From the IMG/VR virus record IMGVR_UViG_3300033146_000479, positions 1-30,788 of that record: a DNA stretch of 30,788 bases. One strand, written 5' to 3'. The position numbers and the translations under genes were made by a program. Shown here one piece after another: positions 1,871 through 29,417 of the stretch (position 1 is its first letter; each line of letters opens with the position of its first letter). Below the pieces are notes generated by a model, which saw only the letters and a list, made by a program, of their open reading frames with translations, did no database searches and had not been told where the DNA came from. Source of the stretch: a virus.

Positions 1871-2158
1871 ATGAGACAACGAACAAAAAACAGACTATTA
1901 ATAAACTATTTTTTTGCCGTAAGTTCGGAACGCCTCCAAGGCCTCCCAGCTTTTAAGCACTTAACCACGGCCACTATATTAGTGGCGTTATTGACTGGCT
2001 GGTTCTGGGAGAGCTTCACAGAGGCCGCGCTGTACTTAGCCGCCCCACTGGGGCTCTATGTGCTGGCGCTGGTTGTTATGTTCGTAGCGGCCACACCAGA
2101 GCGCAAAGAGATTATAAACGTAAAAGGAAGATATAATGGGACTAATAGAACAGATTGA
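1871..2158 (+). CDS. Small membrane protein, function unknown
   Basis: The 95-aa protein has a basic N-terminus (MRQRTKNR) and two hydrophobic segments, roughly residues 31-46 and 51-75, separated by a short acidic turn (WFWESFTEA). This predicts a two-pass inner-membrane protein with both ends inside. It overlaps the next gene by 23 bases. Two-pass proteins of this size can be holins, but a better holin lies with the endolysin at 16837, and this one sits among tail genes. It may be a superinfection-exclusion or late membrane protein. The function is not assignable. Confidence 0.7.
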   Translation: MRQRTKNRLLINYFFAVSSERLQGLPAFKHLTTATILVALLTGWFWESFTEAALYLAAPLGLYVLALVVMFVAATPERKEIINVKGRYNGTNRTD

Positions 2159-3983
2159 GCAACTGGCCGCGGCTAGTGGTTACTCATTCAGCTACGGCGA
2201 CGAATATGAGCAGAACTATAATGTTGACCAGCTGGACATCGACGAGCGCCCCGTGCTGGCTTTGCTTCCAATGGTCAGTTCTGGCAGTTACGAAAATGGA
2301 ACCTTAACAGGCCGCGAAGTGTCGGCAGTAGTTAGCCTAGGCGTTAAGGGAGGAGGCGAAGCGCCTCCAAGCAACCCGCCACGCTGGGCCACGCTTAACG
2401 GCATGACCTCAATAATTTATACGGATATTTTGGAGCTAGGCGACACCTACGCGCTGGGATTTAGACTGAAGTACGGCGGAGGCACTACGCTACTGGGCTT
2501 GACGAATGGGGAGGGCTACGGCCTACGAATTGACGGGCTTAACGTGTCGCACAACGTACAAGGCACAGAGGCCGCCGTAGTGCTGGACGAGGCTATGACA
2601 GCGGGCCGCGAGTACGTGGTAACGGTAACGCGTGACGGGCAGGCCGTGGACTTTGAGATATCGCAAGACGGCGCGGCGTGGTTTAGCGCGTCGGGCACAC
2701 TGCCAAACGTCGCGACTGGCGGGCTTGTTGCCACAGTTACAACTTCAAGCGCATTAAGTTTTACAGATTTAACAAGTGTCACAATAGTAAGTCAAGTGGG
2801 CACAGCAACAGCCGAGATACTAGGGAATGAAGTAATATTTTCAGTTGGTGGCGTGATTGAATATATAGAGTTAAGCAATGGAGTAGTAATGTATTTTAAC
2901 GGCCATTGTATAGATTCCTTAACAGGTGATGCAATCCCTAATAGAGGTTTTACCTTCGCAGAAATAGCGACAGGAACTACACAAGCGGCAATAGATAGTT
3001 TAGGAAGTAATGTTATTCACACTAAAGGAATTCATTATATTAATTCAACATTTGAAGATTTAGGTGGTTGGATTCCTTTAGATGGAGGTGAAATATTAAA
3101 GATAAAAACAGATAGACATATAACCCCTCCTAGTAGTTTGAATGTGGTATCTGATGGGAAGAATAAGGGAATTACAAAACCTATAACTATTCCAAAAGGT
3201 GATGTTTATTTTGAGGCTATGCTATACATAGTTAGTGAGGTAGTCGCTAATAAAATAAGAGTGCGTACATCAACAGCCCAGGATTTCTTTTTAGGAAATG
3301 TAGCTTTAGGTGAATGGGTTAAGATAAGCGGCTCGGTAGTTCTAACAGGCGATACTACTGTTAGGATTTATAATAATACCCGGGCCACGATTAAATATTA
3401 TTTAGACAATGTAATTTTCAGGCAGAACATAGATGCTTTAGTAGTAGCACCTCAATTCACACCACTGCCAACAGATGTTATATTAACAGGAGAGGGGTAT
3501 AAAGGCGTCGGGGTGGAAGTGCCCGTGGGAGACTTCGAGCCTGACAACGTCGGAGCCTATACAGATGCGGAAGGCACGACGCTGTACAGCCCCGCAATGC
3601 TTGCATACTTCGAGGCCAACGCAGACAGATACGAGTTTTTCGACGACGACTGCAAGCTGGGAGGCTACGAGGGCGAAACGATACCGAGCACGGACATAGT
3701 GACAGGCGAGCCCGTGGAGGGCGCGCGAGGCAGCGGAGAGGCAGAGCAGACATTCACAGCGCAGAGCACCAGAGACGAGACAAGGCGCGAAAAATACGAC
3801 AACCGCCTCGGCTATTTGTCTGGAGCACTTAAAGAGTTTATTATGCAGCTGGCGCAGCTTGACGGCGTGACAATGACCAGCGACCATATAATTGAACAAG
3901 TTAATAAATATGACGCAAATTTAGAGTTTGTTGTGGCCGAAATAACTTTCGAGCACGACGAGGCGATAAGCTGCGAGAATTAA
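2136..3983 (+). CDS. Probable tail terminator/completion protein carrying a ~460-aa inserted adhesion-like region
   Basis: The 615-aa protein looks like a small tail terminator split in two. Residues 1-70 (start MGLIEQIEQLAAASGYSFSYG, then strands) and about 536-615 (helix LSGALKEFIMQLAQLDGV, then LEFVVAEITFEHDEAI) resemble the two halves of the ~150-aa tail terminator common in Bacteroidetes phages. Between them, residues about 72-220 look like a LamG/concanavalin-type beta sandwich (LGFRLKYGGG, GLRIDGLNV, VTVTRDGQAVDFEIS). Residues about 220-445 form a second beta-rich block, including a CBM-like jelly roll at 300-430 (INSTFEDLGGW, LGEWVKISGSV, YYLDNVIF). A linker rich in G, E, T and D joins back. 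The DNA for the second block (about 2760-3480) is clearly more AT-rich. ATG at 2136 has AAGGAAG upstream. Terminator identity is inferred from the end halves and from the gp10-like neighbour. Confidence 0.75.
   Translation: MGLIEQIEQLAAASGYSFSYGDEYEQNYNVDQLDIDERPVLALLPMVSSGSYENGTLTGREVSAVVSLGVKGGGEAPPSNPPRWATLNGMTSIIYTDILELGDTYALGFRLKYGGGTTLLGLTNGEGYGLRIDGLNVSHNVQGTEAAVVLDEAMTAGREYVVTVTRDGQAVDFEISQDGAAWFSASGTLPNVATGGLVATVTTSSALSFTDLTSVTIVSQVGTATAEILGNEVIFSVGGVIEYIELSNGVVMYFNGHCIDSLTGDAIPNRGFTFAEIATGTTQAAIDSLGSNVIHTKGIHYINSTFEDLGGWIPLDGGEILKIKTDRHITPPSSLNVVSDGKNKGITKPITIPKGDVYFEAMLYIVSEVVANKIRVRTSTAQDFFLGNVALGEWVKISGSVVLTGDTTVRIYNNTRATIKYYLDNVIFRQNIDALVVAPQFTPLPTDVILTGEGYKGVGVEVPVGDFEPDNVGAYTDAEGTTLYSPAMLAYFEANADRYEFFDDDCKLGGYEGETIPSTDIVTGEPVEGARGSGEAEQTFTAQSTRDETRREKYDNRLGYLSGALKEFIMQLAQLDGVTMTSDHIIEQVNKYDANLEFVVAEITFEHDEAISCEN
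2760..3480 (+). other. AT-rich segment inside the tail terminator-like gene (probable acquired module)
   Basis: Within a gene that otherwise uses GC-rich codons (GGC, GAC, GCG), this stretch switches to AT-rich codons (GGT, GAA, TTA, ATA, AAT), then switches back near 3480 without breaking the frame. It encodes about residues 210-448, including the jelly-roll-like part. The sharp composition change in an intact frame is what a recently transferred domain looks like. Confidence 0.7.
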
Positions 3984-8516: not shown

Positions 8517-9152
8517 ATGGCTAAGGAGAAAATAAAACTATTCGAGATTGATATAGACTTCGACAAAGTAACAAAGGACACCGCCGCAATGGTCAAGCAA
8601 GTGGCGATACTCAAAAAGGAGCAAAAGGAGCTAAAGAAGTCCACGGACGACCTAACAACCGCGACGGACGAGCAGGCGGCGGCATACGTTAACAACGACA
8701 ACAGCATTAAGGCACTTAATAAGAGCGTGGCGGACAACAACAAGGTTTTGAAAGCCTCCACAGTGGATATTGAAAAAAGCAATATGACATTACGGGAGGC
8801 GCAACAAGCGTTAACAGCTACGGACGCACTATGGCGCCAAACTACGAAGCTGGAGGGCGAAAATTCCAAAAGCTCCAAAGACTTAGCCTCGCAAAAAAAG
8901 AAACTGGGCGAACGCATAAACGTACTGAATAAAGAACAAGGCGACTATAAGGCCAACGTCGGGAACTACACTAACAGCATAACAGACGCGGCGGGGGCTT
9001 CTTCGGCCTTTGGTGGTTCACTTGGTGGCGTGGTGCAAGGAGCCAAGGCGGCAAATACTGCAATGATGAGCCTCGCAGCCAACCCCGTAGGGCTAGTTCT
9101 GGTAGGCTTGGCCACTATCCTAATAACACTGTACAAAGTGCCACTATTTTAA
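8517..9152 (+). CDS. Tape measure protein, N-terminal fragment (frame broken at ~9137)
   Basis: The first part of a tape measure protein, which spans the tail lumen and sets its length. Residues 1-150 are strongly helical and charged (KKEQKELKKSTDDL, SKDLASQKKKLGERI). A small-residue and hydrophobic stretch follows (GGSLGGVVQGAKAANTAMMSLAANPVGLVLVGLATILITL), which looks like a membrane-active segment. The frame ends at TAA 9150 after LYKVPLF. Reading on from 9137 in the -1 frame gives SATILIDVFNDLKNGDF, a natural continuation. The likely cause is one missing A in the AAA at 9135-9137, or a real indel. This piece plus the following two form one protein of roughly 690 aa. Confidence 0.8.
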   Translation: MAKEKIKLFEIDIDFDKVTKDTAAMVKQVAILKKEQKELKKSTDDLTTATDEQAAAYVNNDNSIKALNKSVADNNKVLKASTVDIEKSNMTLREAQQALTATDALWRQTTKLEGENSKSSKDLASQKKKLGERINVLNKEQGDYKANVGNYTNSITDAAGASSAFGGSLGGVVQGAKAANTAMMSLAANPVGLVLVGLATILITLYKVPLF

Positions 9153-9409
9153 TAGATGTTTTTAACGACCTTAAAAACGGCGACTTTAGCAAAGCAATGG
9201 AGCACAGCAAGGATATGGTCAGCGGACTAGGCGACGAAATAAAGCGCGCGGGCGACGAGGCCAGCCGCTTAACTTATGAGCTGGACAGGCTTAAAGATTA
9301 CGCGACGGCATCCGCTTTGGAAATATCAAAGCTGCGCTTCCAATTTGAGGAGCTAAAGGCGGCGGAGGCTGACCAGACAAAGAGCACCAAAGAGCGGAGG
9401 ACGCGCTAA
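9137..9409 (+). CDS. Tape measure protein, middle fragment (second frame)
   Basis: This open stretch has no good start of its own; an ATG at 9197 exists but has no visible ribosome-binding site. It encodes a coiled-coil region (GLGDEIKRAGDEASRLTYELDRLKDYATASALEISKLRFQFEELKAAEADQTKSTKE) that continues the N-terminal fragment. It ends in TAA at 9407-9409 after ERRTR. Reading on from 9394 in the next -1 frame gives AEDALKTLQKLSDIEVG, again continuing the coiled coil. It is best read as part of a single tape measure gene. Confidence 0.65.
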   Translation, partial: SATILIDVFNDLKNGDFSKAMEHSKDMVSGLGDEIKRAGDEASRLTYELDRLKDYATASALEISKLRFQFEELKAAEADQTKSTKERRTR

Positions 9410-10590
9410 AAACGCTGCAAAAACTTAGCGACATAGAAGTGGGAATAGCCCGCGACACATATACGGCGAAGTTGCAATGGTCGGTTAAGGCGGGCGAAGT
9501 TAACGAAGCGGAGGCGCGGGCATTTATGCAACTAAGCGCAGCCAAACAGGAAGCGGTCAGAAACGAGGGCGGCAAGTTGGCGAAGTGGCGCAGTGATATA
9601 GGCGACGAGGAGTACGAGGAATTAAGCAACTTACTTGTAAAAGAGTTTGAAGTGCGGGCGAAATATACTAAAAAAAGTGTTGACCTAGAGCGCAAGTCCA
9701 GCGGCTACGCAAAGGCAGCCGCAAAGGCAAGAGCAAGCGACGCGGCAGCGGAAGCGGCAGCGGAAGCCAGAGCCGCCTCCGACGCCTCCGCCGCTTTGGT
9801 CGAAGTAGTGCAAGCCAGAGCCGCGCAAGTGGTCGAGGTGCACCGCGAGCAAGTGCTAGATATTGCACAGATAGACGCGGACGCGGACGCCCAGAGGCTC
9901 GAAGCTATGGCACTAAATGCAGAGAATGAATACGAACTACTCGCACAGAGTGAGCGCGGGCGCTTGGAGCTAAAACAGCAAGCACTCGACGAGGAGCACC
10001 TCGCAGCCTTAACAGCTGCGGAGCGTATCGGCGCGGACACAAAAGCCATAAACCAAAAATATAAAACAGCTCAACTCGAATTGTCAGTCCAGACGGTAAA
10101 TAGTGAGCTGCAAATGGCTAATAATTTAGTCGGAGCCGTTGGCGCCCTATTTGGCGAAAACGTAGAAGCCCAGAAAGCAACCAAGGCCGCGCAGATTGGT
10201 ATTAGCTCAATACAGGGAGCCGCGGAAGCGGTCGCCCAGTCTATGAGTTTGGGGCCGATAGCTGGCCCAATTATGGGCGGAATTTTAGCAGCTGGCCAGA
10301 TAGCCTCGGGGGTTTCGAGCATTAAAAAAGTATATGCCGTTAAGAACCCACTGCCTAAAGGTGGAAAATCACTACCCAGGGTGAGCACACCAAGCGGCGG
10401 GGGAACACAAGCGGCGACCAGAATAAGCGACGGCGGACTGCTCCAGAGGCAAAGCACCACGGAAGCAACCAAGACGGCCGCGGCGCAAACCGCGGCAGAG
10501 GGCGGCGGAGCCGTGCCCGTTCTGGTGGTGGACGACGTAACGGCAGCACAAAAAGGACTTAAAAGCGTGGAAGTAGTGGCCGAGATGTAA
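9394..10590 (+). CDS. Tape measure protein, C-terminal fragment (third frame)
   Basis: About 398 residues (a GTG at 9439 could serve as an independent start). Alanine-rich, highly charged coiled coil covers most of the first 230 residues (for example ARASDAAAEAAAEARAAS). A glycine- and alanine-rich hydrophobic stretch follows (AAEAVAQSMSLGPIAGPIMGGILAAGQIASGVSSIKKVYAVKNP), common near the end of tape measure proteins of Bacteroidetes phages, then a low-complexity tail. The stop at 10588-10590 opens the largest control region of the window. If the two frame breaks are real, the phage would lack a full tape measure protein. Confidence 0.75.
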   Translation, partial: AEDALKTLQKLSDIEVGIARDTYTAKLQWSVKAGEVNEAEARAFMQLSAAKQEAVRNEGGKLAKWRSDIGDEEYEELSNLLVKEFEVRAKYTKKSVDLERKSSGYAKAAAKARASDAAAEAAAEARAASDASAALVEVVQARAAQVVEVHREQVLDIAQIDADADAQRLEAMALNAENEYELLAQSERGRLELKQQALDEEHLAALTAAERIGADTKAINQKYKTAQLELSVQTVNSELQMANNLVGAVGALFGENVEAQKATKAAQIGISSIQGAAEAVAQSMSLGPIAGPIMGGILAAGQIASGVSSIKKVYAVKNPLPKGGKSLPRVSTPSGGGTQAATRISDGGLLQRQSTTEATKTAAAQTAAEGGGAVPVLVVDDVTAAQKGLKSVEVVAEM

Positions 10591-10949: not shown

Positions 10950-11162
10950 ATGGACACAAAAGCCTATTTTTTAGCGAGATACGAGACCGAAAACGGCACG
11001 CGCGCGCAAGCGTTTAGCCGTGCCAGCTTCGACGAGGCCAGCGCGGGCGAATATTTGAAAGCGCAAGGCGTGCAAAACTTTATGTTTTTTATGGAGCCTA
11101 ACGAGCCTGAGGAATTGGCAGACGGAACGGTTCTACTTTCGTTAAGGACGGCAAAAGTATAA
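10950..11162 (+). CDS. Head maturation protease, N-terminal fragment (frame broken at ~11132)
   Basis: Starts MDTKAYFLARYETENG behind AAAAAAGGAC, downstream of the promoter. The first 60 residues are the N-terminal lead-in of a ClpP-type prohead protease. The frame runs into TAA at 11160-11162. Reading from 11132 in the -1 frame gives STFVKDGKSIIIDSAGGSLVEGLRIYDG, the classic oxyanion/SPGG-like region before the active site, so the true protein switches frame near 11128-11132 (GTT). One missing T there restores the frame. Confidence 0.75.
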   Translation: MDTKAYFLARYETENGTRAQAFSRASFDEASAGEYLKAQGVQNFMFFMEPNEPEELADGTVLLSLRTAKV

Positions 11163-12148
11163 TCATAGACAGCGCGGGCGGTTCACTTGTTGAGGGCTTG
11201 CGAATTTATGATGGCCTCCGCTTGGAGGGTGGCGCCAAAATTGGCGTATTAGGCCAAGCCGCAAGCGCGGCCACGCTAGCAGTGCTGGCAGCTTCCGAAA
11301 GTTTTATAACCGAAAACTCGACTTTTGTAATTCACAACCCTTATACTTTTACAGTGGGTGACGCCCGCGCGATGCAAAGCACGGCGGAAATGCTCGAAAG
11401 CGAGACGGCCAGATTGGCCGAAATATACGCCAAGCACAGCGGGCGCAGCGTGGAAGACATGCGCGCGTATATGGACAAAGAAACCAGCTTCAACGCTTCC
11501 GAGTGTGTAAGCTTAGGATTTATCAAAGAACTAAAGAGCACGGGAGCCAATGCGCCCGAGATTATAAACCAAAATAAGGACATGAAAGCAAAAGAAACTA
11601 AGGAGCTGAAAAGCTTACTAGACGGCTTCGGCTCCAAGTTGAAAAACTTACTTACTGGCGCGGGGGTTAAGGCCTTGACAGTAACAGACGCCAACGGCGC
11701 GGAGCTAGACTTCGGCGAGGACGTGGAGAACGTCGAGGACATCGAAGTAGGGCTAAAAGGCGTAACAGTTGACGGCAAAAACGCCGACGGCGACTACGTA
11801 ATGCCGAGCGGCGAAACGTACGTTTTTGAAGCCGGGGAGCTTAAAGAAATGAAGCCAGCGGCAGACCCAGAGGAAGACCCAGAGAGCGACACGGAGGAAG
11901 TGGAGAACCTAAAAACCGAATTGTCGGAGGTTCAAAACGCTTTGAAAGTGGCGGAGACTGCAAAGGCTACGGCCGAGGCGGAGCTGGAGACAGCACGCAC
12001 AAAGTTAAGCGCAAGCACCGCAAAAGCGGAGGAAGTACGCGCGGAGTTTGACAACTTCAAAAAAGAGTTACAAAGTAAGTTTAAATTAGACACCAACACA
12101 GCAGCCGCGGGCGGAAGCCCTAAGCGTGTGGGACGTCGTAAAAAATAA
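11132..12148 (+). CDS. ClpP-type head maturation protease fused to scaffold-like C-terminus (main part)
   Basis: The self-compartmentalised serine protease that trims prohead proteins. After IIIDSAGGSLVEGLRIYDG, the catalytic Ser lies in GQAASAAT and the catalytic His in FVIHNPYTFTVGDA; an Asp or Glu in YMDKETSFNASECVSLGFI completes the usual block. About residues 1-145 of this part are protease. The last 185 or so residues are an acidic linker (EEDPESDTEEVE) and a coiled coil (VENLKTELSEVQNALKVAETAKATAEAEL), ending with a basic KRVGRRKK, as in scaffolding proteins. A TTG at 11198 could be called as a start but falls after conserved residues. The next gene, the capsid protein, starts 5 bases later. 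Confidence 0.85.
   Translation, partial: STFVKDGKSIIIDSAGGSLVEGLRIYDGLRLEGGAKIGVLGQAASAATLAVLAASESFITENSTFVIHNPYTFTVGDARAMQSTAEMLESETARLAEIYAKHSGRSVEDMRAYMDKETSFNASECVSLGFIKELKSTGANAPEIINQNKDMKAKETKELKSLLDGFGSKLKNLLTGAGVKALTVTDANGAELDFGEDVENVEDIEVGLKGVTVDGKNADGDYVMPSGETYVFEAGELKEMKPAADPEEDPESDTEEVENLKTELSEVQNALKVAETAKATAEAELETARTKLSASTAKAEEVRAEFDNFKKELQSKFKLDTNTAAAGGSPKRVGRRKK
11582..12148 (+). CDS. Possible nested scaffolding protein (internal in-frame start)
   Basis: An in-frame ATG at 11582 is preceded by AATAAGGAC, a good ribosome-binding site, and begins MKAKETKELKSLLDG, exactly where the protease domain ends. It would give a 188-aa scaffold protein: a small beta domain (DVEDIEVGLKGVTVDGKNADGDYVMPSGETYVFEAGELKEM as its core), an acidic linker, a coiled coil and a basic tail. 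Phages such as lambda make scaffold from an internal start of the protease gene in this way. This is inference from start-site quality and domain boundary. Confidence 0.45.
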   Translation: MKAKETKELKSLLDGFGSKLKNLLTGAGVKALTVTDANGAELDFGEDVENVEDIEVGLKGVTVDGKNADGDYVMPSGETYVFEAGELKEMKPAADPEEDPESDTEEVENLKTELSEVQNALKVAETAKATAEAELETARTKLSASTAKAEEVRAEFDNFKKELQSKFKLDTNTAAAGGSPKRVGRRKK

Positions 12149-17316: not shown

Positions 17317-17379
17317 GTAAATTATTTTTACAAAAAAGTAAATTATTTTTACATTCGGCCGCTTTTTTGCCTATCTTTG
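17317..17379 (+). promoter_or_regulatory. Early promoter 1 with two operator repeats
   Basis: Two identical 16-mers GTAAATTATTTTTACA lie at 17317-17332 and 17338-17353, a period of 21 bases, so they sit on the same face of the helix. A -7 element TATCTTTG lies at 17372-17379. No TTG is present at the -33 position; the second repeat covers that place. The pattern suggests a regulator that blocks or replaces -33 recognition. The transcript would start just before 17390 and lead into the gene at 17441. Confidence 0.75.
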
Positions 17380-17440
17380 CACCCTGTCAAGGGGCTAAAA
17401 GGCCACCCCGCAAAGCTAGAGGCCTATAAATTAGCAGTTT

Positions 17441-18213: not shown

Positions 18214-18804
18214 ATGACAAAAATTAAATTTGAAGTAATCCTAGACACTGCCAACGAGGTAGAAATGGAAGCACTAAACAGCCTACTTTTAAACCTATCT
18301 GAAGAGGTGGCAACCAAAGAGGTGGCAACCAAAGAGGTGGCAACCAAAGAGGTGGCAACCAAAGAGGTGGCAACCAAAGAGGTGGCAACCAAAGAGAGCC
18401 CAGAGGCTCCAGAGGAAACCGCGGAGGAACGCAAAGAGAGCCCAGAGGCTCCAGAGGAAACCGCGGAGGAACGCAAAGAGCGCAAGCGACAGGAAGCCAA
18501 CGCACGCAAACGCAAAAAGCGCGCAGAAGCCAAAGCGGCCAGAGAGGCGGAGGAAGCCAGAGAGGCAGCTGAAGACGCGGCAGAGGCTAAAGCGGAAGCG
18601 GCCGAGAAAGCGGACGACCTCCCAGACTTCGAGCAAAAAACCGATTTAGACCTTATCAACAAAGCGCGAAAATTGGTTAGCAAAAATGTAGGCGAGCACC
18701 GCGACGAAATAAAAGAGGAACTCGCACGCATGGGAGCGCGCAACGTGTCCAGCGTACCAGAGGACAAGCTGGAAGATTTTTGCAGTTTTTTAGAACTTTT
18801 ATAA
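18214..18804 (+). CDS. Repeat-containing charged protein with conserved C-terminal domain
   Basis: The 196-aa protein has an N-terminal ~30-residue strand/helix part, then six exact copies of EVATK (residues about 31-60), then two copies of the 14-residue ESPEAPEETAEERK. A long charged helix (RKKRAEAKAAREAEEAREAAEDAAEAKAEAAEK as a whole) follows. The last 55 residues (LINKARKLVSKN, HRDEIKEELARMGARNVSSVPEDKLEDFCSFLELL) form a small helical domain resembling those at the end of several phage recombination or ssDNA-related proteins. Function unassigned; position before the DUF2800 and DUF2815 genes suggests a replication or recombination accessory role. Confidence 0.75.
   Translation: MTKIKFEVILDTANEVEMEALNSLLLNLSEEVATKEVATKEVATKEVATKEVATKEVATKESPEAPEETAEERKESPEAPEETAEERKERKRQEANARKRKKRAEAKAAREAEEAREAAEDAAEAKAEAAEKADDLPDFEQKTDLDLINKARKLVSKNVGEHRDEIKEELARMGARNVSSVPEDKLEDFCSFLELL
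18304..18477 (+). repeat. Coding minisatellites: six 15-bp units then two 42-bp units
   Basis: GAGGTGGCAACCAAA is repeated exactly six times from 18304 to 18393. It is followed by two exact 42-bp units at 18394-18435 and 18436-18477. Unit lengths are multiples of three, so copy change keeps the frame. Confidence 0.95.
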
Positions 18805-18805
18805 T

Positions 18806-19999
18806 ATGGGAGCCCCTACAGTGAACCACCAAGCCAGAGCGCACGCACTACTCGCACCGAGTAGCGCCGCGCGCTGGATAGGGTGCACGCCGTCGGCTCA
18901 GCTAGAGGAAGCCGAACGAAAGCGCGTAGGCTCGCACGACAGCGAAGCAAGCAGAGAGGGCACGCTGGCGCATGAGTTCGCGGACTTAGCGCTCCAGCTC
19001 TACACTAAAGCCATAACGACAGAGGCGCACGACAAGGCAGCGGACAAGCTAAGAGCCGACAAGCTATACACGCTAGAAATGGAGTCGCAAGTGGCCAAAT
19101 ATCGCGACTTCGTGGTCGCGCAATACCAAAAAGAGGCGCGCAAGTGGAACGGGGCGGAGTTGATACCCGAGCAGCGCTACGACTTAACCCGCTACGTGCC
19201 CGAGAGCTTCGGCACGGCCGACGCCACAGTGCTAGGCCGTAAAATGATAACTATCGCAGACCTAAAGTACGGCCGCGGGGTGCAAGTTTACGCGGCCAAC
19301 AACGCGCAGTTAAGACTATACGCTCTTGGCGCGATTGAGCACTACGCGCAAGACTTCGAGCGGGTGCAAATGGTTATAATACAGCCACGGCTCGACCACT
19401 ACGACTATGAGATAATGACAGTAAAGGAGCTACGAGACTGGGGCTTTAGGGTAGCGCAACGCGCGGCGCATTTAGCCGTGAAAGGGCAGGGCGCTCAAAA
19501 AGTGGGCGCGTGGTGCAAGTTCTGCGACGTGGCGTATAGGTGCAAAGCGCAAGCGGACAACGCAGCCAAGCTCGCGGCGTATGACTTCGCAGACCCTAAG
19601 ACGCTAACAGACGACCAGCTGCTCGCAATATACGAGCATTTGGACAGCTTTAAGAGCTGGGCGACCTTGGTCGAAAAATACGTGTATAATGAAGCGCTAA
19701 ACGGTAAAAGCTGGGAGGGCTTCAAACTGGTGGAGGGGCGAAGCTCGCGCAAGTGGAGCAACCCAGAGCGCACGGGCGAACTATTACAGGCGGAAATGTT
19801 CGACGACAACGAGATTTATAAACCTCGGACGCTTCGAGGTATTGGTGACTTGGAAGCGCTACTAGGTAAAAAACAATTTAATGTGATATTGGAGGGTCAC
19901 ACCTACAAGAGCCCCGCATCGCCTAAACTAGTGCCGGAGGACCACGGGGGCACGCCGTACAGCAACCACAAAACAGCGGCGGAGGACTTCAAGGCGTAA
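18806..19999 (+). CDS. DUF2800 protein, Cas4/RecB-like PD-(D/E)XK nuclease
   Basis: The 397-aa protein matches DUF2800, a phage family of the RecB/Cas4 nuclease superfamily thought to act in recombination or replication. Candidate catalytic residues are Glu122 (PEQRYDL), Asp139 (GTADATVL) and Asp152-x-Lys154 (IADLKYG). Four cysteines, Cys27 (WIGCTPS) and Cys237, Cys240, Cys246 (WCKFCDVAYRC), are placed like the Fe-S cluster ligands of Cas4/AddB-type nucleases. An N-terminal helix EGTLAHEFADLAL is also typical. Length is normal. The gene ends inside an 80-bp repeated promoter region. Partner: the DUF2815 protein that follows. Confidence 0.85.
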   Translation: MGAPTVNHQARAHALLAPSSAARWIGCTPSAQLEEAERKRVGSHDSEASREGTLAHEFADLALQLYTKAITTEAHDKAADKLRADKLYTLEMESQVAKYRDFVVAQYQKEARKWNGAELIPEQRYDLTRYVPESFGTADATVLGRKMITIADLKYGRGVQVYAANNAQLRLYALGAIEHYAQDFERVQMVIIQPRLDHYDYEIMTVKELRDWGFRVAQRAAHLAVKGQGAQKVGAWCKFCDVAYRCKAQADNAAKLAAYDFADPKTLTDDQLLAIYEHLDSFKSWATLVEKYVYNEALNGKSWEGFKLVEGRSSRKWSNPERTGELLQAEMFDDNEIYKPRTLRGIGDLEALLGKKQFNVILEGHTYKSPASPKLVPEDHGGTPYSNHKTAAEDFKA

Positions 20000-20075
20000 A
20001 ATAAATTTACAATAATGTAAAATATTTTTACAGTGTAAAGAAAATTAGTGTATCTTTGCAGCGCAATAAGGGACA
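19996..20075 (+). repeat. Repeated promoter block, copy A
   Basis: About 80 bases nearly identical to 29337-29417 (offset 9341 over most of the length, one base longer in the second copy near the end). It contains the TGTAAA/TTTACA array and the -7 element. It begins inside the stop codon of the DUF2800 gene. Confidence 0.9.
20006..20058 (+). promoter_or_regulatory. Early promoter 2 with operator array
   Basis: Half-sites alternate: TTTACA 20006-20011, TGTAAA 20016-20021, TTTACA 20027-20032, TGTAAA 20034-20039. The core 17-mer TGTAAAATATTTTTACA is at 20016-20032. TATCTTTG at 20051-20058 is the -7 element. The third half-site occupies the -33 position, where no TTG is present. The promoter serves the DUF2815 gene. 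Confidence 0.8.
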
Positions 20076-20740: not shown

Positions 20741-20775
20741 AAGGCGCAGCGAATAGCCGCTGCGCCTTTCTTTTT
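20741..20775 (+). terminator. Intrinsic terminator after the DUF2815 gene
   Basis: AAGGCGCAGCG at 20741-20751 pairs with CGCTGCGCCTT at 20758-20768 around AATAGC, followed by a T-rich run. The polymerase gene 36 bases later has no clear promoter, so it relies on read-through, giving less polymerase than ssDNA-binding protein. Confidence 0.9.
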
Positions 20776-20803: not shown

Positions 20804-22786
20804 GTGAAAAAATTACATATTGACATTGAAACCTACAGCAGCACTTCCATAAAGGACGCGGGCGCCTATAAGTATTCCGAGGCCTTGGACTTCGAGATAC
20901 TCATATTCGCCTACGCATACGACGCGGAACCAGTGCAAGCCGTAGAGCTAGCCAGAGGCGAAAAAATACCCGCCCGAGTAATAGCAGACCTAACAGCCCC
21001 AACAGTTCAGAAATGGGCGCATAATGCGACGTTTGAACGCGTTTGCATAGCCGCCGCGCTGGGCATTAATATTCCAATAAGTCAAATATTTTGCAGCGCT
21101 ATAAAAGCGGCCAGCTGCGGACTTCCGCTAAGCTTAGCGAAAGTTTCGGAAGCGCTCCAGCTTGGCGACAAAGCGAAGAACAAAGAGGGCGCAGCCCTTA
21201 TTCGCTATTTTAGCATCCCAGTAAAAGCAACCCAAACCAACGGCGGGCGTGTTCGCAATCTACCCGAGCACGACCCCGAGCGCTGGGAACGCTTCGTGGC
21301 TTATTGCGTGCAAGACGTAGAGGCAGAAAGGGCAATAGCTGACAAGCTGGAGCCGTACAGCTGGACGAGACGGGAGCGCCTCAACTATATAGCTAATGAA
21401 CAGATAAACGACAGGGGGGTACTTATAGACTTGGACATGGCCGCGCAAGCCGTACAACTCGACAAGGACAACCAACTCCGAGCGCTTGGACGCTTGGCTA
21501 AGCTTACAGGGCTAAAGAACCCAAACAGCCCCGCGCAGCTTAAAAGCTGGCTATCCTTAAAGCTAAAAAAGGAAATAAAAAGCTTAAATAAGGATTTTTT
21601 GCCCGAGCTTTTGGAGCGCGCGGAGGCGCTGGGCTTGGTGGAGGTGGTGGAAGCTTTGCAGCTCCGCCGCGAGACTGGCAAAACGAGCGTAAAAAAATAC
21701 GAGGCTATGATAAACAGCGCAAGCGACGACGACCAGAGGGCGCGCGGTTTATTCCAATTTTACGGAGCTTCGAGGACTGGGCGGTGGGCTGGTCGCTTGG
21801 TGCAACTTCAGAACCTCCCACAAAATAAAGTTAAGGAACTGGACGAAGCCCGCTGGCTGGTCGCTACTGGCGACGCGGAGGGCTTGGTGGCTAGTTTTGG
21901 GTCGATTAGCAACATGTTAAGCCAGACAATAAGAACGGCACTAATAGCCCCAAAAGGCCGCGTTTTTGCAGTGGCTGACTATTCGGCAATCGAAGCCCGC
22001 GTTATTGCGTGGCTGGCTGGCGAAGCTTGGCGCCTCGAAGTATTCGCGACGCACGGCAAGATATACGAAGCCAGCGCCGCGCAAATGTTTAACGTACCCG
22101 TCGAGAGTATCGACAAGTCCAACCCGCTAAGGGCTCGCGGTAAAATAGCAGAGCTTGCGCTGGGGTATGGTGGAAGCGTCGGAGCGCTTAAAGCAATGGG
22201 CGGCGAGAAAATGGGGCTTACTGGCTCCGACATGCAATCAATAGTTAAAAAGTGGCGCAAGGCCAACCGCGCAATCGTTAAGCTCTGGCGCTTGCTGGAG
22301 GACACAGCGGTGCGAGCCGTGAAGACCCGCCGCGGCTGGGTTGTTCTGGAGCTACCGTTCACGCGTTTGGGCTTTATCTGCGACGACTACGCGCTACGCA
22401 TATCACTCCCGAGCGGGCGCGAACTATTCTACAAAGGCGTCCAGCTTCGAGAGGGCAAATGGGGCGGCTTGGCTATTACATACGAGGGCACGGAAACAAT
22501 GACACACAGGTGGGGGCGTTTGGAGACATACGGCGGGAAACTAGCCGAAAATATAGTCCAAGCCGTAGCGCGCGACATACTGGCCGACGCACTGCGAAAC
22601 CTCCACGCGGAGGGCTTCGAGGTCGTTATGCACGTGCACGACGAAGCAATCGCGGAAGTAAGCGAAGCCAGAGCCGCGGCAGAGCTGGAGCGCATGGAGC
22701 AAATAATGGCAACACCCCCGCAATGGTCGAGGGGCTTAAATTTACCCGCGGAGGGCTACACAACGCAATATTATAAAAAAGATTAA
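20804..22786 (+). CDS. Family A DNA polymerase with 3'-5' exonuclease
   Basis: The 660-aa replicative polymerase starts with GTG at 20804. The exonuclease domain shows HIDIET at 5-10 (Asp7, Glu9) and QDVEAE at 170-175 (Asp171). The polymerase domain shows motif A ADYSAIEARV at 391-400 (Asp392), motif B RGKIAELALGYGG at 445-457 and motif C VHDEA at 611-615 (His612, Asp613, Glu614). RTGRWAGRLVQLQNLP at 324-339 is the usual template/primer strand before motif A. There is no 5'-nuclease domain, as expected for phage enzymes. It works with the PrimPol/VapE protein downstream. Confidence 0.97.
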   Translation: MKKLHIDIETYSSTSIKDAGAYKYSEALDFEILIFAYAYDAEPVQAVELARGEKIPARVIADLTAPTVQKWAHNATFERVCIAAALGINIPISQIFCSAIKAASCGLPLSLAKVSEALQLGDKAKNKEGAALIRYFSIPVKATQTNGGRVRNLPEHDPERWERFVAYCVQDVEAERAIADKLEPYSWTRRERLNYIANEQINDRGVLIDLDMAAQAVQLDKDNQLRALGRLAKLTGLKNPNSPAQLKSWLSLKLKKEIKSLNKDFLPELLERAEALGLVEVVEALQLRRETGKTSVKKYEAMINSASDDDQRARGLFQFYGASRTGRWAGRLVQLQNLPQNKVKELDEARWLVATGDAEGLVASFGSISNMLSQTIRTALIAPKGRVFAVADYSAIEARVIAWLAGEAWRLEVFATHGKIYEASAAQMFNVPVESIDKSNPLRARGKIAELALGYGGSVGALKAMGGEKMGLTGSDMQSIVKKWRKANRAIVKLWRLLEDTAVRAVKTRRGWVVLELPFTRLGFICDDYALRISLPSGRELFYKGVQLREGKWGGLAITYEGTETMTHRWGRLETYGGKLAENIVQAVARDILADALRNLHAEGFEVVMHVHDEAIAEVSEARAAAELERMEQIMATPPQWSRGLNLPAEGYTTQYYKKD

Positions 22787-22920
22787 GGTCTTTTAAACAA
22801 AATAAAACCTTTAAATTGTTAATAACTTTTATACATTGGATGTTGAAAAGGCAAAATAACGCCGTATATTTGTATTAACAAAAGAGGGATATTCCTCGAA
22901 TAATATTAAATATTTGGATT
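22787..22920 (+). promoter_or_regulatory. AT-rich intergenic with canonical Bacteroidetes promoter
   Basis: TTG at 22843-22845, 19 bases, TATATTTG at 22865-22872 is the best match to the Bacteroidetes consensus in the window, and has none of the TGTAAA half-sites. The surrounding bases are much more AT-rich than the phage average. Transcription would start near 22880 and lead into the small gene at 22921, so this gene has control independent of the early regulon. Confidence 0.75.
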
Positions 22921-23147
22921 ATGAAAAATCAAATTAAAATTAGACTTCAAGAACTAGCAACTGACAATTTTAATACTTATAGTGAAGATTATCCTTTAGG
23001 ACAATACAAGCTCAAGAATTAGCAATAAGCTATTATGAGCATAGAGAAGATAATGAGATTACAAGGGATGAAGAATTGGAAATAACAAAAACTGATTATG
23101 TTGATTGGATTATGGAGGCTTTCTCAAATTATATCCAAAATTTATAA
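22921..23147 (+). pseudogene. Small acidic AT-rich accessory gene, apparently frameshifted
   Basis: ATG at 22921 gives MKNQIKIRLQELATDNFNTYSEDYPLG and stops at a TAG after 33 residues. Switching to the -1 frame near 22995-23000 continues TIQAQELAISYYEHREDNE, then TRDEELEITKTDYVDWIMEAFSNYIQNL, to TAA at 23145-23147. One extra T in CCTTTAGG would join them into a protein of about 75 aa. The product is small, acidic and helical. It is unlike its neighbours in base use and has its own promoter, like a moron. Function unknown; an anti-defence protein is possible, without direct support. Confidence 0.5.
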
Positions 23148-23149
23148 TT

Positions 23150-23269
23150 ATGGAATACTGGACACACAAATTAAAAAAGACTGATATAATCATTAACGGT
23201 TATAGGATAGTTAGAATTAAGCCTGTTAGGTCTTTGCGCACTAAAAGAGAGGTTGAACAAAAGGCATGA
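23150..23269 (+). CDS. Small basic hypothetical protein
   Basis: A 39-aa frame, MEYWTHKLKKTDIIINGYRI then VRIKPVRSLRTKREVEQKA, starts 3 bases after the previous stop, and its TGA overlaps the ATG of the primase-helicase gene (ATGA at 23266). It is basic where its upstream neighbour is acidic. The same AT-rich base use suggests it came with the upstream gene. The overlap with the next start supports it being translated. No family recognised. Confidence 0.5.
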   Translation: MEYWTHKLKKTDIIINGYRIVRIKPVRSLRTKREVEQKA

Positions 23270-25587
23270 CAGCAAAAATAGAGATAAGCACAGGCAGCAG
23301 CGCCAAGTCCAAAAAGTGGCGCGCGCAGACGATAAAATGGGCTGATTTAGTGCGAAAGCTAAGCAAGACCACGAAGACAGCCGAAACGCTGGTGGAGTTT
23401 TTGCGCATGAGCAAAGACGACCAGCTTAATATTAAAGATGTAGGCGGCTACGTCGGTGGACTACTTCGCGGAGCCAGACGAAAGCCCGAAAATGTGGTGC
23501 ACCGCCAATTAATTACGCTCGACCTCGACTTTGCAAATATTGAATTTTGGGAGGACTTCGCCCTTGCTTTTGAGTGCGCCGCCGTTTTACACGGAACGCA
23601 CAAACACCAGCCCAGCGCCGCAAAATATAGATTGATTATACCACTGGATAGAGCCGTGTCACCTCTGGAATATGAGGCAATCGCGCGACGAGTTGCGGGC
23701 GACTTAGGGATAGAGCTTTTTGATAAAACGACATTCCAGCCCAGCCGCTTAATGTTCTGGCCAAGCACCCCCGCAGACCAGCCCTACGAGTTTCACGAGC
23801 AAAAAGGCGACCCACTAAGCGCCGACGAAATGCTGGCGACTTTTACCGACTGGCGCGAGGTTAGTAGCTGGCCGCGCCACGCCTCCGAGGTGGTGGACCT
23901 AGAGAACCGAGTAGGTAAACAGGAAGACCCGACAGAGAAACGCGGACTAATCGGCGCCTTTTGCCGGACCTACACAATACAGGACGCAATCGCGGAGCAC
24001 TTGGCCGACCGGTACACAGAAACAAGCACAGAGGGGCGCTACACGTTCACAGCTGGAAGCGCAGCGGGAGGCCTAACAACTTACAACAACTTATTCGCAT
24101 ATTCGCACCACGGAACTGACCCAGCCAGCGGGCAACTATGCAACGCCTACGACCTTGTCCGACTCCATAAATTCGGGTATTTGGACGAGGGCTCGAGGGC
24201 AACCCACAACAGACCAAGCGACGCCAAAATGGCCGACTTTTGCAGAGACGACAAAAGAACACGGGAGACCATGGCACGCGAGAGCGTGGCAGCGGTTCGC
24301 GAAGCGTTCGGCGAACCAGCGGCCAGCCCCGAGAGAGTGGAGCCCGAGGCGGCGGAGTGGCTGGAGGTCTTGGACATGGACAAAAAAGGCGCAATACTAC
24401 CAAGCGCGGGCAACTTTAGCGCGATTATAAGAAATGATGAACAACTAAAAAAGGCGTTCAAGCTTAACGAACTAGACGGGCGCGGCTATCTTTGCCGCTC
24501 CGTAAAGTGGCGCAAGGTAGAGAGCCCCGAGCCCCTTAAAAACGTGGATTTTGCAGGGCTGCGCAATTACATAGAGCGCGCCTACGGCATAGCCTCCAGC
24601 GCAAAAGTAGAGGACGCGCTGGCCTTGGAAATACAGCGCGAGAGCTTCCACCCAATACAAGATTATCTAGAGGCGCTAAGCTGGGACGGCGTGGAACGCG
24701 TCGACACTCTACTAATAGACTATTTCGGAGCAGTTGACAACCAATACACCCGCGAAGCTATACGCAAACCACTGGCCGCCGCAGTGCGTAGAGTGTATGA
24801 GCACGGCGCCAAGTTCGACTTGGTGCTTACCTTAGTGGGGGAGCAGGGAAACGGCAAGAGTACTTTTTTAAATCGACTGGGCGGGCGCTGGTTTTCAGAT
24901 ACGTTTCTAACAGTGCAAGGCAAGGAAGCGCTCGAACAAATACAGGGGGTTTGGCTTATAGAAATGGCCGAATTAAGCGGGCTAAGAAAGGCGGAGGTCG
25001 AAAGTATAAAGCATTTTATTAGCAAGCGCGAGGACATATTCCGCCCAGCATACGGGCGCACCGCCGAAACTTTTAAAAGACAATGCGTATTTTTTGGCAC
25101 AACTAACAAAATAGGATTTTTGACAGACGCCAGCGGCAATCGCCGATTTGCGCCTGTGTTGACAAAATATAGCAAAGACCAGCCGCGCCCAAAGGGCACG
25201 CCGTCCCCTTTCACAATGACCCGCGAGGACGTGGCGCAAATATGGGCGGAGGTTATGGCCACGTTGCGAGATGAGCCGCTTTATTTTAGCCCCGAGGCGG
25301 AAGCAATGGCGACAGACGCACAGCGCGAGCACGTGGAGCACGACGACCGCGAGGGTCTGGTTGTCGAATATCTGGAGGCCAAGCTGCCCGACGACTGGGC
25401 CAAGTTGGACACGTACGAACGCCGCGCATATTTGGAGCTAGGCGGAACCAAGGGCGCCCAGCGTTCAAAAGTTTGCGCCGCGGAAATCTGGGTAAGCGCT
25501 GCCAGACTTTACACGCCGCGCAGCTATGGAAGTAAGCGCTATATTAAGCAACCTAAAAGACTGGAGACGCTCCACCGCCCGCGCTAG
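23266..25587 (+). CDS. PrimPol–VapE primase-helicase (C-terminus shifted to another frame)
   Basis: The fused replication protein should prime and unwind DNA for the phage polymerase. The N-terminal archaeo-eukaryotic primase-like domain shows LITLDLDFA at 82-90 (acidic Asp86, Asp88), GTHKHQPSAAKYRLIIPLDRAV at about 110-131 and TFQPSRLMFWPS at 156-167. A middle block YSHHGTDPASGQLCNAYDLVRLHKFG is typical of this fusion. The C-terminal VapE superfamily 3 ATPase shows GEQGNGKST at 525-533 (Walker A), IEMAEL at 565-570 (Walker B) and TTNKIGFLTDASGNRRF (sensor-like). The expected end of VapE proteins, MEVSAILSNL then KDWRRSTARA and GVYGRQRYFYRA, is in the +1 frame at 25526-25663. So the gene should end at TGA 25661-25663, overlapping the nuclease ATG. 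Confidence 0.93.
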   Translation: MTAKIEISTGSSAKSKKWRAQTIKWADLVRKLSKTTKTAETLVEFLRMSKDDQLNIKDVGGYVGGLLRGARRKPENVVHRQLITLDLDFANIEFWEDFALAFECAAVLHGTHKHQPSAAKYRLIIPLDRAVSPLEYEAIARRVAGDLGIELFDKTTFQPSRLMFWPSTPADQPYEFHEQKGDPLSADEMLATFTDWREVSSWPRHASEVVDLENRVGKQEDPTEKRGLIGAFCRTYTIQDAIAEHLADRYTETSTEGRYTFTAGSAAGGLTTYNNLFAYSHHGTDPASGQLCNAYDLVRLHKFGYLDEGSRATHNRPSDAKMADFCRDDKRTRETMARESVAAVREAFGEPAASPERVEPEAAEWLEVLDMDKKGAILPSAGNFSAIIRNDEQLKKAFKLNELDGRGYLCRSVKWRKVESPEPLKNVDFAGLRNYIERAYGIASSAKVEDALALEIQRESFHPIQDYLEALSWDGVERVDTLLIDYFGAVDNQYTREAIRKPLAAAVRRVYEHGAKFDLVLTLVGEQGNGKSTFLNRLGGRWFSDTFLTVQGKEALEQIQGVWLIEMAELSGLRKAEVESIKHFISKREDIFRPAYGRTAETFKRQCVFFGTTNKIGFLTDASGNRRFAPVLTKYSKDQPRPKGTPSPFTMTREDVAQIWAEVMATLRDEPLYFSPEAEAMATDAQREHVEHDDREGLVVEYLEAKLPDDWAKLDTYERRAYLELGGTKGAQRSKVCAAEIWVSAARLYTPRSYGSKRYIKQPKRLETLHRPR

Positions 25588-25659
25588 TTTTGGCGTATAT
25601 GGCCGCCAGCGTTATTTTTACAGAGCGCAACCCGCAGACGACTTCGAGGACTTAGGAGC

Positions 25660-25943
25660 ATGAGAGAAACAAAAATAGAAAAAACGCTAATTTTAGAGGT
25701 TAGCAAAGTGGGCGGCTGGGCTATTAAATTGTCCGCCGCCTACATTATAGGAATACCAGACAGGCTGGTTTTATACAAGGGGCGCGCCCCTACTTCGTAG
25801 AGCTTAAAGCACCTAGCAAAAAGCCGCGCAAAGCACAAAAATACATACACCGCAAACTCGCGGTCCTTGGTTTTCGAGTTTGGACAATAGACAGCCGCGA
25901 GGGCGTCGCATTATTTATTGGATTTTTAAAGATTACAGAATGA
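25660..25943 (+). pseudogene. VRR-NUC nuclease, frameshifted
   Basis: ATG at 25660 gives RETKIEKTLILEVSKVGGWA then IKLSAAYIIGIPDRLVLYKG, the N-terminal half of a VRR-NUC endonuclease (catalytic Asp in GIPDRLVL), and stops after APTS. The -1 frame continues from GGGG (25782-25785) as GARPYFVELKAPSKKPRKAQ (catalytic Glu-x-Lys in VELK), then LAVLGFRVWTIDSREGVALF, to TGA 25941-25943. One missing G restores a ~95-aa protein of normal family length. Both ends overlap neighbouring genes by ATGA, so it was intact in the ancestral operon. The family cuts structured DNA and often accompanies a VapE primase and an SNF2 helicase in phages. Confidence 0.85.
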
Positions 25944-28252: not shown

Positions 28253-29356
28253 ATGGACAGGATTATAATAGAATTTGAACGCGGCGACTGTTTGGACGGA
28301 GCCCGCAAAGTGGCCGACGAGGCCGTGGACTTCGTGCTAACAGACCTGCCATACGGAACGATTAAAGGTATGGGGCGCAACACGCAATATGCGGACGGCT
28401 TGCGCTCCGACTGGGATACTATCGTGGACACCTCCGCGATAATGGCCAACACTCAAAGGGTGCTAAGGTACAACGGCAAAGCCGCCTTTTTTGGGAACCA
28501 GCCGTTCACAACCGAATTAATAAACCACCAGCGCGCGGGGCTCCCTTTTATTTATGTAAATTACTGGCATAAGCTAAACTTCGCCAACGCCCTAATTGCT
28601 CGTATTGCTCCCGTGTCCGTGGTGGAAGATATCGCGGTTTTCAAAAAACCTTATCCGAACCACGACTACGACCTAGCGCACCCGCTGCGCCCCTACTTTG
28701 CGGAGGTGCTCAAATACATAGGCAAACCAAAGCGCGAGATATTCGCCAAGCTTGGCACGCGCTTAGACCATACGCTCCGCGTTAATTCGTCGCAGTTTAG
28801 TTTATGTACGCGCGAAGCTTACGCGGACTTGGTGGCGGAATACCAGCTGCGGCAAATGCACACTTTTAAGAGCTTCGACGAGCTAGAGCCGATAAACCGC
28901 GCCCACGTGGAGGAACTACTCGCACGCGTAGCCAGTGAGCGCCCGAGCGTGTTTAATCTACCAAAAGGCCAAGGGCATAAAAAAAATATATTCACGTATA
29001 AAAAAGACCGCGACAACATACACAGCACGCAGAAACCCGTCGCGCTATTGGTCGACTTAATACTAACATACACACGGGAGGGCGACACAGTGCTAGACTG
29101 GACGGCGGGCTCTGCTTCGTGTGCAATAGCAGCCGCGAGCACTGGCCGACATTTCAAGGGCTGGGAAATGGACGCGACGCACTACGCGGACGCGGTGGAG
29201 CGCTTGCGAATTTGGATCCAAGCACAACCAAACCCAGAACGCTACGAGCTACGACTAAGCGTGGGGGGAACCAGTGGAGCCGCTCCAGAACCAAGGGCGA
29301 CACCCGAGGCGCTGGCGCTATGTTTGAGCTTTGAATGTAAAATAAATTTACAATAA
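28253..29356 (+). CDS. DNA N6-adenine/N4-cytosine methyltransferase (beta class)
   Basis: The 367-aa enzyme has catalytic motif IV as LTDLPYG at 29-35 before the S-adenosylmethionine site DTVLDWTAGSASC at 278-290, the order of beta-class enzymes. HSTQKPVALLVDLIL at 257-271 (motif X) and GWEMDATHYADAVERL at 303-318 (motif II) complete the fold. A long target-recognition region (residues about 80-240) lies between the motifs. The gene runs into the second copy of the promoter repeat and uses its TAA at 29354. No restriction endonuclease partner is seen, so it is an orphan methyltransferase, likely protective or regulatory. Confidence 0.93.
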   Translation: MDRIIIEFERGDCLDGARKVADEAVDFVLTDLPYGTIKGMGRNTQYADGLRSDWDTIVDTSAIMANTQRVLRYNGKAAFFGNQPFTTELINHQRAGLPFIYVNYWHKLNFANALIARIAPVSVVEDIAVFKKPYPNHDYDLAHPLRPYFAEVLKYIGKPKREIFAKLGTRLDHTLRVNSSQFSLCTREAYADLVAEYQLRQMHTFKSFDELEPINRAHVEELLARVASERPSVFNLPKGQGHKKNIFTYKKDRDNIHSTQKPVALLVDLILTYTREGDTVLDWTAGSASCAIAAASTGRHFKGWEMDATHYADAVERLRIWIQAQPNPERYELRLSVGGTSGAAPEPRATPEALALCLSFECKINLQ

Positions 29357-29399
29357 TGTAAAATATTTTTACATTGTAAAGAAAATTAGTGTATCTTTG
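29336..29399 (+). promoter_or_regulatory. Early promoter 3 with operator array
   Basis: Half-sites alternate TGTAAA, TTTACA, TGTAAA, TTTACA, TGTAAA between 29336 and 29380; the core TGTAAAATATTTTTACA is at 29357-29373. The -7 element TATCTTTG is at 29392-29399. The array also covers the end of the methyltransferase gene. It drives the small genes from 29462. Confidence 0.8.
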
Positions 29400-29417
29400 C
29401 CGAGCAATAAGGGGACA
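29337..29417 (+). repeat. Repeated promoter block, copy B
   Basis: About 80 bases nearly identical to 19996-20075. Differences are only a few single-base changes and one extra G near the end. It includes the half-site array and the -7 element. Two copies 9.3 kb apart in the same direction give a substrate for recombination. Confidence 0.9.

Follow-up and report, generated by a model that had tools for sequence, protein, structure and literature searches.

We identified, between the genes for DNA polymerase A (polA) and the VapE primase-helicase (vapE) of a Bacteroidota-type phage, an A+T-rich island that appears to be an acquired cassette with its own promoter, an interpretation that is well supported. 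We consider it probable that the island is a cargo cassette derived from a Bacteroidota phage or host of higher A+T content, that it occupies a recurrent polA-vapE insertion site, and that it carries a complete promoter, a pair of accessory proteins, and thereby an internal promoter for the rest of the replication operon. The observed parts of this explanation are the composition of the island, its insertion site, its promoter motifs, and the phased spacing of these motifs in other phages. Positions of the features are listed in Table 1.

The window, by which we mean the whole stretch of DNA analyzed, is the whole of IMG/VR record IMGVR_UViG_3300033146_000479 (30,788 bases). It encodes structural and lysis proteins (terminase, portal, protease, tape measure, and endolysin), proteins of replication and DNA processing (exonuclease, single-stranded DNA-binding protein, DNA polymerase A, VapE primase-helicase, VRR nuclease, and SNF2 helicase), and two DNA methyltransferases. 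A search with its capsid protein found no close relatives of the phage. Elsewhere on the contig, a strong, attenuator-like hairpin with a T-rich tail lies within the replication operon, directly 5' of the DNA polymerase gene (20741-20768), and 15-base tandem repeats (18287-18421), which appear as EVATK in the protein, lie within an ORF of unknown function.

Table 1. Features of the island, its neighbors, and the repeated promoter-like element (positions in the window).
Feature	Position	Strand	Remarks
77-base promoter-like element, three copies	17317-17393, 19996-20072, 29337-29413		two copies 96% identical
DNA polymerase A (polA), left neighbor	20804-22786	+	family profiles
A+T-rich cassette between polA and vapE	22787-23265	+	G+C 0.28
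Upstream promoter element TTGTTAATAACTTTT	22816-22830	+	about -61 to -47; phased relative to the -7 box in IMG/VR
-33 region TTG (GTTG, 3/4 of consensus TTTG)	22843-22845	+	19 bases 5' of the -7 box
-7 box TATATTTG, Bacteroidota primary sigma factor	22865-22872	+	consensus; intergenic matches in other Bacteroidota phages
Small leader hairpin GAGG-GATATT-CCTC	22884-22897	+	fold; leader-region z -1.2, not significant
ORF1a, first part of split gene, 33 aa	22921-23022	+	A at position -3
ORF1b, -1 frame, 53 open codons	22986-23147	+	no start of its own; two helices predicted
ORF2, 39 aa, basic, pI 10.4	23150-23269	+	stop overlaps vapE start (ATGA)
VapE primase-helicase (vapE), right neighbor	23266-25587	+	phrog_256, PF05272

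The island occupies the space between polA and vapE exactly. Its G+C content is 0.282, versus 0.511 for the window, and lies about 5 standard deviations under the mean of 480-base windows. In a best-segment search, the top A+T-rich segment of the contig was 22767-23220, with a score of 60.5, compared with a maximum of 11.8 in 200 shuffles. An initial sequence-only reading had described an AT-rich island in the replication block, and this description is borne out. The same reading held that the segment differs from everything around it, which is true locally, but a second A+T-rich segment is located at 2753-3486, and the window holds three copies of another promoter-like element. The second A+T-rich segment (G+C 0.35) is inside a long ORF without a family match (2136-3983) and may represent a tail or surface domain that was acquired. 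Two other candidate identities for the island were rejected: a mobile element, because the island has no terminal repeats worth the name, and a structured RNA, because the fold energy equals that of shuffles and Rfam gave no match.

In several related phages, polA and vapE are arranged compactly, with a gap of about 3 to 30 bases. The gap is 8 bases in Croceibacter phage P2559Y, 9 in Elizabethkingia phage TCUEAP1, and 11 in Clostridioides phage phiCDKH02, and, among Bacteroides phages, 3 in BS162P3, 18 in EMB1, and 30 in BF486P2; the genes are adjacent in IMG/VR loci L004 and L009 as well. Because the compact form is present across phages of two phyla, it is most simply taken as ancestral. Mutually different inserts are found at the junction in L002, L003, L005, L007, L008, L057, Dulem virus 37, and Bacuni_F1. 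The insert of L002 is 350 bases long and includes a 79-aa ORF as well as a TATATTTG of its own, and that of Dulem virus 37 carries thymidylate synthase, dUTPase, and other genes. The differing genes that other phages carry between polA and vapE mark this junction as a recurrent cargo site and as a place in which to seek accessory genes of such phages.

Promoters of the Bacteroidota primary sigma factor (sigma-ABfr) have the consensus TTTG / TAnnTTTG (PMC7366714, PMC2483708, PMC6847099). The -7 box of the island, TATATTTG, fits TAnnTTTG, and GTTG, which matches the -33 consensus at three of four positions, is found at the correct spacing; transcription is predicted to start near 22877. When the first 135 bases of the island were shuffled, a pair consisting of TTG and TAnnTTTG arose in 1.6% of cases; shuffling of the whole island gave 4.8%. 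The island resembles sigma-ABfr promoters in its perfect -7 box, 19-base spacer, 44-base leader, and A at -3 of the start codon, and differs from the consensus in its -33 sequence and in an additional GTTAATAACTT element at about -61 to -47. Of the consensus promoter that had been proposed for the island, TATATTTG is present at 22865 and TTG at 22843, the -33 box being imperfect. Its proposed span, 22843-22872, includes both boxes, but the promoter reaches further 5', to TTGTTAATAACTTTT at 22816-22830. A blastn search with the upstream region matched 71 bases (78%, E 6e-5) of intergenic DNA in Chryseobacterium phage MA9V-2, located 5' of a sigma factor gene; the stretch in common includes TTGTTAATAACTTTT. 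A longer pattern that comprised promoter and leader had no match in IMG/VR.

The phage probably has a promoter type of its own, with operators, in the form of the 77-base element. This element contains GTAAA/TTTAC palindromes and a TATCTTTG box, and its copies precede early genes. The island promoter is not of this type, which fits an acquired cassette.

The cassette had been said to contain two tiny ORFs, one acidic and one basic. The basic ORF is indeed present, but no intact acidic ORF exists: ORF1a alone has a pI of 8, and only the product joined across a -1 break, about 75 residues long, is acidic (pI 4.2, charge -10). Since ORF1 is broken and neither ORF has a homologue, the case for coding is purely statistical. 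Only 0.25% of shuffles contain two open runs of 53 codons. Base-position bias is significant for joined ORF1 (p 0.0006) and not for ORF2 (p 0.61). The openness of the frames was itself the basis for choosing them, which calls for caution in reading these statistics. Searches of phage sets with both proteins, the first in joined form, which had been suggested as a check, returned no relatives: homologues were absent from IMG/VR, nothing significant was found in named phages and fetched loci, and joined ORF1 had no relatives in genomes, plasmids, or PDB sequences. Pfam, PHROGs, PADLOC, and NCBIfam likewise gave no hit for either ORF, and neither matched a DNA-binding or Aca-type family. Single-sequence structure models gave two helices for ORF1b (pLDDT 79) and a hairpin plus helix for ORF2 (best pLDDT 73, others about 50). 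For now, ORF1 and ORF2 are ordinary ORFans.

Programmed -1 frameshifting in ORF1 was considered and rejected, as the overlap contains no slippery heptamer. Other genes on the contig are interrupted in a similar manner. The VRR nuclease gene (25588-25940) is split over two frames by a -1 change, and its halves match adjoining parts of phrog_93. The tape measure gene (8517-10590), whose initial and final pieces both match the family phrog_37298, is probably broken twice, both times by -1. In the ClpP-like protease (11080-11230), the first part is absent in frame, and a shift of -1 at about 11150 may account for this. That several breaks have the same sign suggests base-level assembly errors in the contig, and the ORF1 break is likely to be such an error; given the same-sign breaks in other genes, it is not yet readable as biology.

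The most likely role of the island, as far as its sequence allows a role to be assigned, is that of accessory cargo combined with an internal promoter that serves vapE and the genes that follow. In this proposal, host RNA polymerase carrying the Bacteroidota primary sigma factor would bind the -33 and -7 elements, while GTTAATAACTT, on the same helix face, would be touched by the alpha-subunit tail, in the manner of an UP element, or by an activator, and would raise initiation. A transcript from about 22877 would encode ORF1, which in the intact phage is probably a single acidic protein of about 75 aa, and then ORF2. The ATGA overlap would carry expression on to VapE and the genes behind it; because ORF2 overlaps the vapE start, the promoter would drive the replication operon and not a gene standing on its own. 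The net contribution of the cassette would be a small pair of accessory proteins and a promoter inside the operon that serves its second half.

This arrangement only partly agrees with a moron, the type of element to which the island had been assigned. Like lambdoid morons, it is situated between genes that are adjacent in relatives, has a deviating composition, and has its own promoter, as judged by motifs and comparison. Unlike them, it reads along the operon and overlaps the next gene. A search of the + strand of 22787-23265 detected no terminator-like site, and the assignment to morons in the strict sense is therefore not supported.

Among other explanations, we weighed the possibility that only the promoter matters, that is, that the phage acquired an internal promoter and leader for vapE, and that the ORFs are decaying or are open by chance. 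The broken state of ORF1, the lack of homologues of either ORF, the missing codon signal in ORF2, and the exact coincidence of the segment's end with the vapE start all favor this explanation. However, two 53-codon open runs are improbable by chance (P 0.0025), joined ORF1 shows base-position periodicity, and the VRR nuclease gene and probably the tape measure gene share the -1 type of break, such that the break in ORF1 may be a contig error. We regard this explanation as rather unlikely.

A more specific function, anti-defense, was suggested at the outset; in this reading, the island would be a moron and ORF1 a small acidic inhibitor (a DNA mimic or anti-CRISPR) made immediately on entry. The joined product is small and acidic, the lineage-specific insertion has a host-type promoter of its own, and the phage already carries two DNA methyltransferases. 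Nevertheless, small acidic ORFans are common and mostly have no tie to defense, a terminator and an adjoining regulator gene are absent, and the family searches described above detected no defense-related, Aca-type, or other match. The suggestion derives from size and charge alone, there is no evidence for it, and we judge it improbable. Least probable, and by our estimate very improbable, is that replication starts in this A+T-rich stretch between polymerase and primase. The location of A+T-rich DNA within the replication block and the sequence GTTAATAAC, which we take to be loosely like a DnaA box, were counted in its favor. By contrast, no repeated iterons are present, the cumulative GC skew does not turn, the segment is absent from compact relatives, and the GTTAATAACTT word acts like a promoter element elsewhere.

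The behavior of the upstream word in other phages merits more follow-up than do the island ORFs. The window contains one exact copy of TTGTTAATAACTTTT, the next best site having three mismatches; in shuffled windows, the expected count of this word in combination with a -7 box is 0.00. No copy was found in three smaller relatives of the phage, or in the window outside the island. A search of IMG/VR for TTGTTAATAACTTTT, followed after 22-44 bases by TATATTTGTA, returned 94 stretches. In the 65 distinct sites among them, the gap was 24-25 bases (two sites), 32-35 bases (41 sites), or 42-44 bases (22 sites), and never 26-31 or 36-41. The gap in the window is 34 bases, the commonest value elsewhere. 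When 36 sites were taken that had not been selected for a -7 box, 22 of the 23 boxes nearby were at 24-25, 32-34, or 44-46 bases, whereas the boxes near 97 sites in the opposite orientation were scattered. When the upstream word alone was searched for (74 sites), 39 sites had TATATT at the phased distances; on the opposite side, 3 of the 74 did, and the expectation was about 1.6% of sites.

Eight large phage contigs, which correspond to about five independent lineages because some are near-copies, have 10-20 copies each, all on one strand, and the backward pattern was not found in them. The reverse-complemented element, used as a control, was absent from six of the eight and occurred four times and twice in the other two. 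One large contig with the phased promoters encodes proteins with tails at the C terminus that resemble those of type IX secretion, which fits Bacteroidota hosts for that contig.

We see about an even chance that GTTAATAACTT, located 24, 34, or 44 bases 5' of a -7 box, functions in Bacteroidota phages as a promoter element not described before, and that either the alpha-subunit tail of RNA polymerase or an activator from phage or host recognizes it. In this view, large phages would use it at 10-20 sites each, and a small cargo cassette would have carried it into the present, unrelated phage, whose promoter type is different. As with UP elements and class I activator sites, an A+T-rich word lies 5' of the core promoter at distances that are one helical turn apart, but the word is much stricter than an UP element and has a palindromic core, GTTA-A-TAAC. 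We found no description of the phased element in the papers searched. A search for promoter motifs in B. thetaiotaomicron could hardly have seen it, because that search spanned only -50 to +1. Bacteroidota promoters are unlike textbook promoters and are known mainly through a pair of short boxes. An additional element with strict spacing, present at many phage promoters, would aid in the reading of these genomes, offer a way into how genes are controlled in large phages of the phylum, and provide a testable promoter part. In many large Bacteroidota phages (sites in L144, L182, L150, and G003), the upstream word and the -7 box are separated by a hairpin that has a variable stem, a T-rich loop, and a tail of T residues, and these sites seem to unite a terminator and a promoter in one element.
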